The position numbers and the translations under genes are program-made. Positions 27,713-32,677 of a stretch of DNA of 39,125 bases are shown piece by piece. The stretch spans positions 1 to 39,125 of IMG/VR virus record IMGVR_UViG_3300046170_000167, one strand, 5' to 3'. The notes below the pieces were generated by a model that made no database searches, was not told where the DNA came from, and saw nothing but the letters and a program-made list of their open reading frames with translations. Each line of letters begins with the position of its first letter. Position 1 is the first letter of the stretch. The stretch is from a virus.

Positions 27713-30700
27713 TTATGCTGATAATGCTCCACCGCCCAGGGACAGTGCAGCTTTCTCTTCTTCGTCTTCCTTCATAGCGACAGCCATGTTTGCGATAACA
27801 CCAGCCAGAAGTACTCCCAGCGGCAGGTTAAAGAATTGAACAGTACTATTCTTTGCGAATGCCTCACGGATTAACTTAGCTGTCATAGGCATGTTCTGCT
27901 TCGCCAGCTGTGGATCAGCTAGATAATAGGCGATAGCGTCTGCAGCCATCTCTTCTGGGGATTGGAAGTAATTGGCTTCATTATCTTTCAATCGCTTTCT
28001 GTTCACAGCTTGAAGTTCAGGACTTAATTGCTCAAATGTCTTGTAACTATCTCGAATACGCATGTCAGTGCCTGGGATAAATCCCTTACGCTGCAGAGCA
28101 ACGACCTCATCGTATATTGCTTTACCGATTTCGCGTTTCTTTGAATTAGCTTTGGAATTGACTGACTGCGTACCTAGTATAGCGGTCATGATCTGACGGA
28201 AGGTATCTTCGTAGACGTTACCACCTTTTACTGCAGTACCTTTGACAGGACTGTAGTAAGACGTAGAGGAAAGAACACCGTCTTCGTCCTGTCTGTTTTT
28301 ACCAAAACGGAAGTTTGCTTCTATGGCATGTCCAAGTTCATGCAGCGCGACCCATAACTCACGGTTTTTACCACCGCCAGTCTTCTTGGGGTTCTTAGGG
28401 TTTACATAGTCTCCACTCAGAACGGCTATTGTTCCGCTGCCGCCTGGTTTACCTTGTTTTGCTTCAAACCCGCCTCTGGAGAAGCCAGAACCAAGATTGC
28501 CTCTAAAAGACTTGCTAAGCTGTGCGCTGTTCTTGGCAATGATGAACACATGGTGGAAGGCTTCGACGACAGACCGAACAGTCCGGATGTCTTTAATACC
28601 GTTCTCAAACGGTGACCCTGGCTTGCCTACCTCGAAGATAGCTCTGACTACTCCGTCAGCTTCACGCAGTTCAGCTGGATTGGCTGGTCTGCTTCCGGCT
28701 ACGGAAGTATTAGGTTCGGATCGTTGAGTATCCCCTTCGGGTTGTCCGTTATCGGCTCTGTCAAGGGCTGGCTCTTGGCTTTGGACTGTCCCTTCGCTTT
28801 CGGCAGCTTGCTGAAGTACTCCGGCAGTTCCGCTAGTAACTCCGCGTCCATCTGATCCAGAGGGGTCATTAAGAACTCCTCGCCCATCAGTGCTAGGTAA
28901 GACTCCTGGTTGATTGGTATCCCCGATCTGTCCAGGGACTGCAGTGTCGAGTCTTGGGCTGCTTCCTTCCCAAGCCGCTTTATTAATGCCGCCAGCGATG
29001 CCATCTATTTCTCCATAAACTTGTTCTAATGTTATATCACCGTCGTCGTATCTTTGCCAGATTTCTTTTACTTTGGCTTTATTAGCTTTAGTCTTAAAAC
29101 CAGATGTGAATAAGCCTCTGATGGCTTCCCAGGTGATAGACTGCATCTCTCTTGGTAAGACACCAACTTCTGCAGCTGCTTCACGATATGCGTCAGCATA
29201 GACCCCGTAAGATCCCATAGTTCCCGATAGCTTAGACCCTTCACCAGCTGTGCCTAAGTTATAGCTGACTTCTATATCAGAACCAGCTAAAGGCCGTAGA
29301 AGACCAGCTGCGACAGCGTGGGTATCGATAGTGACATCACCCTTGTCGCTGAATGGGTTCAGTATGTTATTATAGAAACTTCTGACCTTGTGTCTTGTTC
29401 CAAGGTTAATATGAACAGTCTCACGGCTGCCGTTATTGATTATGTTAATGGCTTTCTCAACCATGCCAAAGCCGTTAAAACGTATGCTAGAAGGTGTTAC
29501 ACCGTCTTCATTCATTCTAGTTCCAACTAGCTCACCTTCAGGGCTAATAACCTGATGGCTGCCGCCATTAGGATTGTTTGCAGCATCCCAGAAACGAACA
29601 AACATTGCCTGTTCTTTCAAAGGTAAGTCTTTCAGCTTCTTACCACTTATCTCTTGTAACTTAATCTTATAACTTACTAAAGACGGTGCTGTTGCCGGAT
29701 CTTTACCTTCATTAATTAGCCTAGCTTCAGTTTCATCAATCATCTTCTGAAAGGCGGCTTGCTCTGCTTCACCGAATACAGCGTCTTGCTGGTTAAGGTA
29801 TGTATCGATAACACGGACACCGATGTCGTAATTCATGTACCAGTCTTGCTGTGGAGACAGGACTGCCATAACGCCAGCTACTTGAGGCGTAGTTAGCCCA
29901 AATCTCTCACCTACAGCCTTGGATAGACGATTAGCACCCGCATACCACTTCCTGGCTCTTTCACGATACTCAGGCGTCACTGAGTTATAGAGATGCAGTA
30001 GGTTTCTTTTTACTAACTCAATGAACTGTCTGTCACTTGGTATGGAATTACTGCCACGGTTGTCACGGCTGAACCCCTTCATGCCTACATATGCATTTAG
30101 TTTATCAAGCATACGCTCGAATACAGTGCCGTTCTTATTACCAGGAGAAGACTTAATTGCCTCTACGCTTACCTGCAAGTCTTCAGTAAGTGGATCAGCA
30201 AGGGCGTTCTTTCCTGCAGGAACTCTTGTAGACACGCGCATTGGATCGTTTTCAATAGGCTGGTCTAGTCTAGGCTCTTGACTCTGATTGATCTCAGGAA
30301 ACTGACCTAAGATGCTACCATCGTCGTCTGGCTGTGCTGGGGCTTCTTGCTGTTGCTGCTCTGGAGCAGCGTTAGCCTGGGCTTCTACACGCTGGACATA
30401 CGGCAGTAAGTATGTGTCAGCAATGGATCTAGCACTAAGGTTAGCCGTTGCTTCGTCTAGAATACTCCGGACACGACCAGCTGGGTCTGCGCCCAGGTTC
30501 TTACGCATAGCCATTAGTGCTGTCTTTACGACAGACTTATCACCAGGCGATAGAGTGTCGTCAGCGTCTGCAGCTGCAACAAGCTCGTCTACAGCTGCCT
30601 GGTTGTCTCTAATGCCGCGCTCGTAGTTTGCGCCTTTAGGGTCTGTAGTTCCTCTAGGCTGTGCTTGTACGCCTTCTGGGTTGAAATCGCGGATAGGTTC

Positions 30701-32677
30701 TCTAACTCTAGTGACTCCAAGATCCGGCACGTTGTCTAGACGCTTATTGATTTCCTGAATTAACAAGCTCATATCTTTGACTTCAGGAACAACAGTCTTA
30801 CCTGAGATTGCATTCTCAGCGGCCTGGTTAGCTGCGCGTTTCAAGACTGGATTTGTAGCTGTTCTGCTTATGATTGATAATATACGCATCAATCCATTTG
30901 TATCCAAACCAGTGGACTGCTCCATCACGTCCTGTGGGCTGCTTGGTGTTGCTCTTGCACCTGTGAGAAACAGGTTAGTGCTTAACTCTTGAGAGTCTCT
31001 CTGCTCCTGTTCACGTCTCCGCTGCTCTTGCTCTTGCTGCATCTGAGCAGTCAATTCACGCTGTCTAGCCTGTTCACGGACTGACGGTGCGTCAGTGGCT
31101 TGGACGCCTTGGTTATTGATGTTGCCCTGGATATACCGCTGAACCTTATTACGTCTTCCGGTGATGCGGTCTATAATCCGACCAGCACCGACTGCAGCTG
31201 CCTGTCCTACAGGTATCAGCGGATTGATAGTTGCAGCACCCATGGTGGCGATAGGACGCGCCAGGCGTTCAAATGATGCCTGACCTTTGTCGTATCCAAT
31301 AGTCGATCCAAGCGGTGAGAAGCTGTCTGTAATACGGCTAACACCGCCCTGGTAGCCACCGTTGTGAAGTCCTGTTAGCTCGTTCATCCGACGCATAATT
31401 GACGCCAGCTGTTGACCTTCGGCAGTGTCGCCTGTCAAATCCATGACAGCTTGCATCTCTTCGTTACCGACACTGGACTTGGTTTTGTTTCTGGCTTCGC
31501 GATAAGCAACCTTGGCTAGTATCTTTTTAAGCACCAGATCTCTGGGATCTCCGTCCTTGATCTGCAGACGTTCGCGAAGATCTTTGATGAGTTGTTTCAT
31601 CTCTTCGTCATACCGGATATGCAGATTGTCTACAGCTTGACGGACACCGCCTGTAGACTGCTTGTCTAGATCGTTAATATCAAGGTCATTGACCTCTATC
31701 ATATTCTGTAGATCTCTAGCAAAGTCTGCGGCTGCAGCTTCGTCATTGCCTACAATCTTAGAAGATGTGTTAACGCCTGATACAACATTGCCAGCTAGGT
31801 TTGCAGCACCTTTGGCAGTATCAACTGCAACACTAGTTCCACCGCCCATAGTGCCGCCTAGTGCAGCGGCTTCAAAAGCTCTAGATCCTAGTTGCTGGGG
31901 CGTATACTGGCCGCCTTGTGCGACACCACCTGCAACAACTAGTCCTTCTTGTCCGGCTTCGGTGACACCCTCTATTCCAGCGTTCTTAGCTGCGCGTTTT
32001 GCTACTTCTACTGCAGCTGTGCCGTAACCCTTTTTAGTAAGCTCTTCTGTCAGCTCGCCTAGTGTCATCTTTGCTAGTCTGTCTTTAGGTATAACCTTAC
32101 CAGCACCAAACTTATCAAGCAGACCAATCAAAGCACCCAGGCTTGCAGCCTGTGCTGGGTCATAAGCTCCTGATACTTCTTCTTGTTCCATGGCTACTTC
32201 GCCAGCACCCATCAGACCTGTGCCGATTGCCGTCGTTCCACCAATCACAGCGGCAGCTGGTGCGCTGTAAATTGACGCTACGGCAGCTGCGGCTGTACCT
32301 GCCAATGCAGCCCCGCCAGAAGGTGCTGTTTCCAGGGTCTTTTCCCATAACGCACCGAAGAAATCACCTGATCCGACATACTCACTCAAAGGTTTGTTGT
32401 AAGTCGGGATGTAGCCGCCCTGCGCGATGTCCTTCTGTTGCTGTTGGACAACGCTTGTTCCGTAGTCTGCGATAGTATCACTGCCCGTCAGGTTACCGAA
32501 GACTTCAACACCCTTACCCAACATCATCTGCGCTTGGTCAACACCGTAACCAAGTGCGCCTTGACGTTCTGCGATGCCTTCGTTGTAGGATAGTTCAACA
32601 AGTGTTTGATCTAACTGCTCAGGTGTGAGGTTGTCGGGGATCTCGTAGATGCTTTGACCTACCTGATATCGAGCCAT
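27713..32677 (-). CDS. Large polyvalent internal (ejected) protein with zinc-protease motif, 1654 aa
   Basis: At 1654 aa this is the largest gene. The first 300 residues are Ala/Gly-rich with hydrophobic stretches (GGAALAGTAAAAVASI, AAAVIGGTTAIGTGLMG) that could cross membranes. A long helical Gln/Arg-rich part follows (QQEQEQRRREQEQ). Residues about 860-1210 form a conserved-looking domain with GVMAVLSPQQDW (about 939) and VTIDTHAVAAG (about 1120). A linker (about 1225-1330) precedes a C-terminal zincin signature, WVALHELGHAIE (HExxH, about 1445). Place and size match the internal virion proteins that leave the head first and carry enzymes into the host. Confidence 0.75.
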   Translation of the reverse strand: MARYQVGQSIYEIPDNLTPEQLDQTLVELSYNEGIAERQGALGYGVDQAQMMLGKGVEVFGNLTGSDTIADYGTSVVQQQQKDIAQGGYIPTYNKPLSEYVGSGDFFGALWEKTLETAPSGGAALAGTAAAAVASIYSAPAAAVIGGTTAIGTGLMGAGEVAMEQEEVSGAYDPAQAASLGALIGLLDKFGAGKVIPKDRLAKMTLGELTEELTKKGYGTAAVEVAKRAAKNAGIEGVTEAGQEGLVVAGGVAQGGQYTPQQLGSRAFEAAALGGTMGGGTSVAVDTAKGAANLAGNVVSGVNTSSKIVGNDEAAAADFARDLQNMIEVNDLDINDLDKQSTGGVRQAVDNLHIRYDEEMKQLIKDLRERLQIKDGDPRDLVLKKILAKVAYREARNKTKSSVGNEEMQAVMDLTGDTAEGQQLASIMRRMNELTGLHNGGYQGGVSRITDSFSPLGSTIGYDKGQASFERLARPIATMGAATINPLIPVGQAAAVGAGRIIDRITGRRNKVQRYIQGNINNQGVQATDAPSVREQARQRELTAQMQQEQEQRRREQEQRDSQELSTNLFLTGARATPSSPQDVMEQSTGLDTNGLMRILSIISRTATNPVLKRAANQAAENAISGKTVVPEVKDMSLLIQEINKRLDNVPDLGVTRVREPIRDFNPEGVQAQPRGTTDPKGANYERGIRDNQAAVDELVAAADADDTLSPGDKSVVKTALMAMRKNLGADPAGRVRSILDEATANLSARSIADTYLLPYVQRVEAQANAAPEQQQQEAPAQPDDDGSILGQFPEINQSQEPRLDQPIENDPMRVSTRVPAGKNALADPLTEDLQVSVEAIKSSPGNKNGTVFERMLDKLNAYVGMKGFSRDNRGSNSIPSDRQFIELVKRNLLHLYNSVTPEYRERARKWYAGANRLSKAVGERFGLTTPQVAGVMAVLSPQQDWYMNYDIGVRVIDTYLNQQDAVFGEAEQAAFQKMIDETEARLINEGKDPATAPSLVSYKIKLQEISGKKLKDLPLKEQAMFVRFWDAANNPNGGSHQVISPEGELVGTRMNEDGVTPSSIRFNGFGMVEKAINIINNGSRETVHINLGTRHKVRSFYNNILNPFSDKGDVTIDTHAVAAGLLRPLAGSDIEVSYNLGTAGEGSKLSGTMGSYGVYADAYREAAAEVGVLPREMQSITWEAIRGLFTSGFKTKANKAKVKEIWQRYDDGDITLEQVYGEIDGIAGGINKAAWEGSSPRLDTAVPGQIGDTNQPGVLPSTDGRGVLNDPSGSDGRGVTSGTAGVLQQAAESEGTVQSQEPALDRADNGQPEGDTQRSEPNTSVAGSRPANPAELREADGVVRAIFEVGKPGSPFENGIKDIRTVRSVVEAFHHVFIIAKNSAQLSKSFRGNLGSGFSRGGFEAKQGKPGGSGTIAVLSGDYVNPKNPKKTGGGKNRELWVALHELGHAIEANFRFGKNRQDEDGVLSSTSYYSPVKGTAVKGGNVYEDTFRQIMTAILGTQSVNSKANSKKREIGKAIYDEVVALQRKGFIPGTDMRIRDSYKTFEQLSPELQAVNRKRLKDNEANYFQSPEEMAADAIAYYLADPQLAKQNMPMTAKLIREAFAKNSTVQFFNLPLGVLLAGVIANMAVAMKEDEEEKAALSLGGGALSA
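28699..29004 (-). CDS. Nested gene inside the polyvalent protein gene, 101 aa (candidate)
   Basis: A second frame within the 1654-aa gene starts at an ATG with a textbook GGAG six bases before it and runs 101 codons. The product looks like a real helical protein: MASLAALIKRLGKEAAQD, then EEFLMTPLDQMDAELLAELP and a basic, proline-containing end. In the main frame the same DNA encodes a low-complexity Gly/Ser/Asp/Pro linker between two domains, where overprinting is easiest. The family is not recognised. Confidence 0.5.
   Translation of the reverse strand: MASLAALIKRLGKEAAQDSTLQSLDRSGIPINQESYLALMGEEFLMTPLDQMDAELLAELPEYFSKLPKAKGQSKAKSQPLTEPITDNPKGILNDPNLILP

Follow-up and report, generated by a model that had tools for sequence, protein, structure and literature searches.

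We found that a 101-codon open reading frame (ORF) nested in the +1 frame of a large phage gene is very probably a protein-coding gene, held under selection at the protein level and tied to the module of the Pfam family DUF7178 that the large gene encodes. The small protein belongs to a family that is missed by annotation programs, and separate, slightly overlapping and fully embedded states are found within this one homologous family, which makes the question of how genes become embedded testable. The family points to a so far unrecognised partner for the enzyme module DUF7178 where this forms part of giant phage proteins, and also to a predicted glycosylase-like fold for this module. The window referred to below is the whole stretch of DNA analysed, that is, the 39,125 nucleotides of the virus record IMGVR_UViG_3300046170_000167.

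The nested ORF and its host gene

The large gene (27713..32677, minus strand) encodes a multi-domain protein of 1654 residues, which by its context is of the virion or ejection type, its neighbours in the window being terminase, portal, tail and DNA-ejection genes. The C-terminal domain carries a zincin-type motif, HELGH (residues 1446-1450; 28328..28342, minus strand); it gave no profile match to a peptidase, and is assigned as a zincin from this motif alone. The multi-domain build with an HExxH motif fits the polyvalent proteins described in the available part of PMC5512222, and the genomic context suggests that the large protein may enter the host along with the DNA of the phage. In BFVD, an ART-PolyVal-like domain protein is among the structural matches of the DUF7178 module.

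The nested gene (28699..29004, minus strand) encodes 101 residues plus a stop, in the +1 frame of the large gene. Its ATG (29004-29002) follows a Shine-Dalgarno sequence, GGAG (29011..29014), with a spacer of 6 nt, and is the first possible start, since an in-frame TAG (29005..29007) immediately 5' of it closes the nested frame upstream. This start sits just ahead of the natural C-terminal end of the DUF7178 module, which occupies 28970..30070 (minus strand) in the main frame and ends at a conserved GGI..(A/P).W motif. The first-pass annotation had described a 101-codon frame opened by an ATG with a GGAG(N6) ribosome-binding site, overlying a Gly/Ser/Pro/Asp linker of the main frame; the frame is confirmed as real, and the main frame over it is indeed rich in these four residues and relaxed.

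The product had also been said to read like a folded helical protein, which holds for its greater part. AlphaFold2, run with an alignment of 73 rows, predicts helices over approximately residues 3-66 (mean pLDDT of 73-87 per block), in line with a conserved core of about residues 1-69, and a disordered tail over about residues 70-101, where pLDDT is mostly <50; the whole model has moderate confidence (pLDDT 70.8, pTM 0.51). The window product has no cysteines, and no structural match to the small protein was found among viral models. The small proteins are acidic, with a median pI of 4.41 (n=112).

Members of the family and linkage to the DUF7178 module

We scanned with the large protein and obtained 80 loci. 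Their large genes again contain a +1 ORF in this position, immediately 3' of the DUF7178 module, and the family shares the core pattern D..l..L....(L/I)P.T(R/Q)E.YL.lAYPe......E.eaeLP. Starting from the module, the small gene lies directly 3' of it in all 77 testable loci of 80, the three left out being two that end within 150 nt past the module and one (L012) with no type-A module. Starting from the viral side with the small protein alone as query, for which 80 loci were kept out of 157, the module lies at most 400 nt upstream in 79 of them and further up in the same ORF in the remaining one (L070), so that all 80 have the module when this locus is counted. In cellular genomes four small-protein loci were found, of which one (L177, from an Opitutae bin) has the module; the other three relatives (L178-L180), from bacterial genome bins, have no DUF7178 module nearby. 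Among annotated phages, Rhodobacteraceae phage LS06-2018-MD07 carries a nested member of the family.

The pairing is not absolute, because it is broken by phages zth2-2 and CRP-738, which have a full module with no detectable small gene, and by three of the four cellular loci. No small-gene match was found in any of the six cases Janus gp73, SIO1 gp9, Cece 22, zth2-2, CRP-738 and Rctr197k. The small protein thus accompanies the module within large phage proteins, and not the enzyme everywhere.

The window product had no family match in Pfam, NCBIfam, PADLOC or PHROGs; a hit to the Pfam SicP-binding family (E 0.18) is at chance level and was rejected. For the family as a whole, which Pfam, NCBIfam and PADLOC also miss, five of 29 members touch phrog_15504 (best E 0.011) and ten further members do no better than E 0.22, so that no PHROG match has confidence. 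A tblastn search of the window product against annotated phages returned, in the best 20 of 50 matches, DNA polymerase only (E 1-2), which we regard as chance, and other family members gave no match in searches of phages or plasmids. The search against phage proteins suggested in the first-pass annotation yielded only chance-level matches for the window product by itself. Built with the window left out, the family profile recovers the window ORF with E 8.9e-14, as the sole match among 826 window frames.

Selection on the two frames

The length of the ORF was dropped as evidence for a gene, since a +1 ATG-ORF of at least 101 aa arises in 209 of 2000 synonymous-codon shuffles of the large gene; the probability of finding no stops over exactly this linker is 0.028. 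What places the nested ORF beyond chance is the leave-one-out homology given above, together with frame-specific selection in its relatives. The latter was measured in three gapless sets of relatives: set A of nine polyprotein loci with an ORF of 61 codons, one of six loci (65 codons) and one of 15 loci (62 codons). The window copy itself lies outside the sets, its nearest type-A relatives having nested identities of 31-46%, too distant for a frame test.

In the overlap, changes at main-frame positions 1/2/3 amount to.367/.131/.107,.321/.124/.127 and.294/.122/.168 in the sets of nine, six and 15, respectively, whereas upstream of the overlap set A gives.085/.065/.398. The peak of substitutions in the overlap thus falls on main position 1, which is nested position 3, in the three sets. 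Correspondingly, the nested dNN/dNS is 0.36 (interval 0.22-0.52), 0.31 (0.18-0.50) and 0.49 (0.32-0.72), compared with 0.90-1.14 upstream, and the main dNN/dSN in the overlap is 1.39, 0.83 and 0.81, each with an interval spanning 1, compared with 0.12-0.37 upstream. Minimum-change counts in the overlap and upstream also differ (chi-square p of 2.8e-15, 1.2e-8 and 1.6e-7). When 16 type-A loci are compared pairwise, the nested product has the higher identity of the two readings in 119 of 120 pairs, in an alignment made on the nested protein, which favours that frame. The excess conservation of the nested frame among relatives, which had been proposed as a check, is thus present: in the relatives tested the second frame is under purifying selection in the overlap, and the main frame there has a ratio not distinguishable from 1.

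Conservation of this kind could in principle come from an RNA structure or a DNA element, such as a recombination site, and not from a protein, and a low-divergence block shared by two relatives of the window (L003 and L086) is what recombination would leave. However, the three-base rhythm in the nested phase is seen in three independent sets and again in a set of type-B ORFs (see below), and we consider this explanation highly improbable. Least probable of all is a chance open frame with no gene, for which speak the synonymous shuffles that yield an ORF as long and the two closest relatives (again L003 and L086) that hold another ORF at that place, as it is already contradicted by the leave-one-out match and by the purifying selection on the nested frame in relatives.

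Arrangements of the small gene and direction of origin

At 112 distinct loci the small gene is nested in 103, always in the +1 frame (103/103). In 66 of the 112 the large frame ends at most 400 nt further on, and in 37 the small gene is embedded in a frame that continues or runs off the contig; six loci were classed as separate (overlap of up to 60 nt) and three as partial. A Shine-Dalgarno sequence of at least 4 nt precedes 97 of the 103 nested starts, and these ORFs contain 3203 further +1 ATGs, of which 17.9% have one; the start was chosen for the best Shine-Dalgarno among candidate ATGs, which favours the first figure. All six loci of the separate class have a Shine-Dalgarno of their own, a damaged one (L023) among them. 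This locus was then dropped as a separate form, as the lost stretch breaks both frames: compared with L008 it has a deletion (L023:8300-8312), which may be a real mutation or an assembly fault.

At six loci (L177, L167, L072, L170, L073 and L068) the DUF7178 frame ends no more than 14 codons past the GGI..P.W motif, and the small gene overlaps the module frame by just 20-74 nt. In the nested forms, the main frame continues past GGI..P.W into sequence rich in Gly, Ser and Pro. One partial locus (L150) has the main-frame stop inside the overlap with the small frame intact, and L070 has a different C-terminus and no overlap. Since the separate forms stop just past this motif and the nested forms read on, it is the Gly/Ser/Pro linker that looks like the newcomer. 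In a tree of 110 modules the arrangements are scattered, the separate label requiring five changes, four of them forced by starred branches; this tree includes L023, its root is unsure, its two outgroup rows do not group, and the counts do not distinguish gain from loss.

We therefore consider that the large gene probably lost its stop and then extended over an existing neighbour. The small gene would have started as an ordinary downstream neighbour of a DUF7178 gene; once the DUF7178 stop was lost, the upstream frame would have continued across the small gene, which would have become embedded as further domains were fused on. The small protein is most likely made by internal initiation at its own Shine-Dalgarno and ATG, perhaps aided by ribosomes already translating the large gene. 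In the overlap it is this protein on which selection acts, the main frame being simply kept open.

The first-pass annotation had the opposite direction, with the small gene as a newcomer that overprinted a relaxed linker. The nested gene and the relaxed linker of that proposal are supported, but the newcomer status of the small gene is not, as the small protein is conserved over all phage lineages examined and the linker is the poorly conserved reading. True overprinting, in which a long gene came first, the small gene arose within its linker and the separate forms are later truncations, appears unlikely to us. It would agree with the nested form being far commoner (103/112), and the tree leaves the direction of change unfixed, but random truncation of an extension of 60-100 codons would scatter the stops, whereas six separate or partial forms stop within 14 codons past GGI..P.W and L150 has the sole mid-linker stop. 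The absence of detectable constraint on the main frame within the overlap and the presence of the small protein in L178-L180 without a nearby module also argue against it. Stop-codon loss in the large gene is thus the reading that we retain. Very improbable, in turn, is ribosomal frameshifting into the +1 frame, which would give an alternative C-terminus and no separate small protein: the constant +1 frame is what it would produce, but of the 103 nested loci 97 conserve the Shine-Dalgarno and ATG, the nested ATG of the window follows immediately upon an in-frame stop, and the stand-alone forms have their own Shine-Dalgarno (6/6 of the separate class, including the damaged one).

Predicted fold of the DUF7178 module

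We found no paper that mentions DUF7178, a Pfam family of unknown function. The AlphaFold2 model of the module (residues 870-1250 of the large protein) has a pLDDT of 90.1. Foldseek of this model against the PDB gave nothing below E 0.16, and a sequence search of the PDB with the module gave a best E of 0.29, which was rejected as chance. Upon structural realignment the top match is the 8-oxoguanine glycosylase Tm1821 (Z 9.3 over 185 residues), followed by AGOG (Z 7.9), a queuine salvage enzyme, EndoIII and MUTYH. Fifteen rows have Z >4.5, and 13 of them are HhH-GPD glycosylases as judged by title or known identity, among them 1xg7, which we take to be one; the first plainly unrelated row has Z 4.1 over 48 residues. 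From this one model, with a Z of 9.3 at best, the module is predicted to have the HhH-GPD fold of an 8-oxoguanine DNA glycosylase.

Two residues of the module, Lys1097 and Asp1118 (in HKV...TIDTHA; 29324..29389, minus strand), form a candidate catalytic pair, with a role suggested by analogy. They correspond to K228 and D249 of the model, are invariant in 33 of 33 rows, and presumably match the catalytic residues of OGG and EndoIII, an equivalence that we assume by motif. Free-standing relatives of the module, of about 200 aa, occur in isolate phages: SIO1 gp9 (L183), Janus gp73 (L181) and Cece 22 (L184). The Lys and Asp motif is kept, by eye, in these distant proteins, and Cece 22 was annotated by its depositors as a glycosylase.

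Exchange of modules in the closest relatives

A scan with the window product gave two viral contigs, which match residues 47-101 only. These two, L003 and L002 (the latter the same contig as L086), are the closest relatives of the window in the C-terminal part of the large gene, and both L003 and L086 have another central module and another nested +1 ORF with its own start. They share with the window ORF, in DNA, just the last ~30 codons, a near-identical 3' tail that the alignment places at 28699..28794 (minus strand), with an approximate boundary. Stops or loss of the ATG in close relatives had been named in the first-pass annotation among the observations that would count against it; these two do lack the ORF, yet a different nested ORF takes its place, which speaks against too simple a history.

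Comparison of the window with L003 (713-6148) indicates that the central module, about residues 800-1330, was swapped, which leaves the N-terminal ~800 residues and the zincin-like C-terminus and has linker motifs of the SQEP.LD type at its flanks; the core of the nested ORF was swapped along with it. We call type B the nested +1 ORFs that begin with MSK.KKHSP.. or MTKRQTTQTQ.., present at L003:4902-5159 and L086:1086-1343 and in L088, L089, L091, L092 and L094. They follow another module, with an invariant K...D pair of its own. Type-A and type-B modules do not match each other by hhalign, and the Pfam DUF7178 profile touches five of the seven type-B members, with a best E of 0.0009, one such member being below the curated cut-off. 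In three type-B sequences the substitutions show the same rhythm (.271/.179/.133, against.167/.096/.424 upstream). Between L003 and L086, codons 1336-1490 of L003 have very low synonymous divergence, which suggests recent recombination; this dip is real, but it was rejected as evidence for the frame, as it begins ~60 codons before the nested ORF.

Possible function

The strict linkage, the acidity, and the fact that type A and type B differ in the small core and the module alike, as if both were exchanged together, lead us to propose, tentatively, that the small acidic protein could be a dedicated partner of a virion-type enzyme, possibly an inhibitor that would restrain the enzyme until ejection. 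Somewhat less probable is a role as a helper in virion assembly or packaging of the giant ejection-type protein, and not as a regulator of its glycosylase-like domain. This would suit the free-standing DUF7178-like enzymes (Janus gp73, SIO1 gp9, Cece 22), which have no small gene nearby, and the L177 locus, where the small gene is followed by a gene with a match to a family of internal virion proteins, but it does not agree with the swapping of the small-protein core along with the module in a large protein that is otherwise retained. A dedicated partner of the enzyme is thus the function that we favour. In its most extended form, of which we are doubtful, the members of this widespread and unannotated family would each inhibit or escort a cognate DNA-glycosylase effector carried in the virion, and would have been repeatedly enclosed through loss of the stop codon of the effector gene, with enzyme and partner inherited and exchanged as one two-frame block and entire modules swapping among giant phage proteins with their own nested partners.

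Comparison with known systems

The module resembles the HhH-GPD glycosylases (Tm1821 Ogg, AGOG, EndoIII and MutY) in its predicted fold and in its Lys/Asp pair, which is invariant, has a spacing of 21 residues and comes with a D.H motif. It differs from them in forming 381 residues inside a giant protein and in having no sequence-level match in the PDB. The large protein resembles the polyvalent proteins, as far as these are described in the available part of PMC5512222, in its giant size, its several domains, among them a zincin domain with HExxH, and its enzyme modules that can be exchanged; that part of the text reports no DUF7178 module or nested partner gene, and the words 'overlapping' and 'glycosylase' are absent from it.

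As small acidic phage proteins linked to a DNA glycosylase, the phage inhibitors of uracil-DNA glycosylase, Ugi and p56, offer an analogy in idea, and we claim no relation of fold or sequence to the small protein. The family differs from them in that its genes accompany a glycosylase-like domain of the phage itself and are not aimed at an enzyme of the host. The small protein is acidic, as a DNA mimic of the Ugi kind would be, which is a weak criterion.

To our knowledge, the embedded genes described in double-stranded DNA phages are mainly those of spanins. Among papers on small genes that overlap phage virion genes or lie within them, none was found on this family, as judged from titles and the beginnings of abstracts. 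The Rz/Rz1 pair of lambda is alike in having a small +1 gene that lies wholly within a larger phage gene, toward its 3' end, and is usually unannotated (PMC6139136, in its available part). The window product is not a lysis protein: it has no lipobox and, lacking cysteine, was rejected as an o-spanin of the Rz1 type, and no sequence relation is claimed. In the part of the spanin survey available, loss of the upstream stop codon is discussed as a possible route from separate to embedded genes, and no family is described in which embedded genes occur alongside separated or overlapped ones (PMC6139136). The route to embedding has so far been argued there without one family that shows the stages, whereas here separate, overlapped and embedded forms occur together in a single homologous family.
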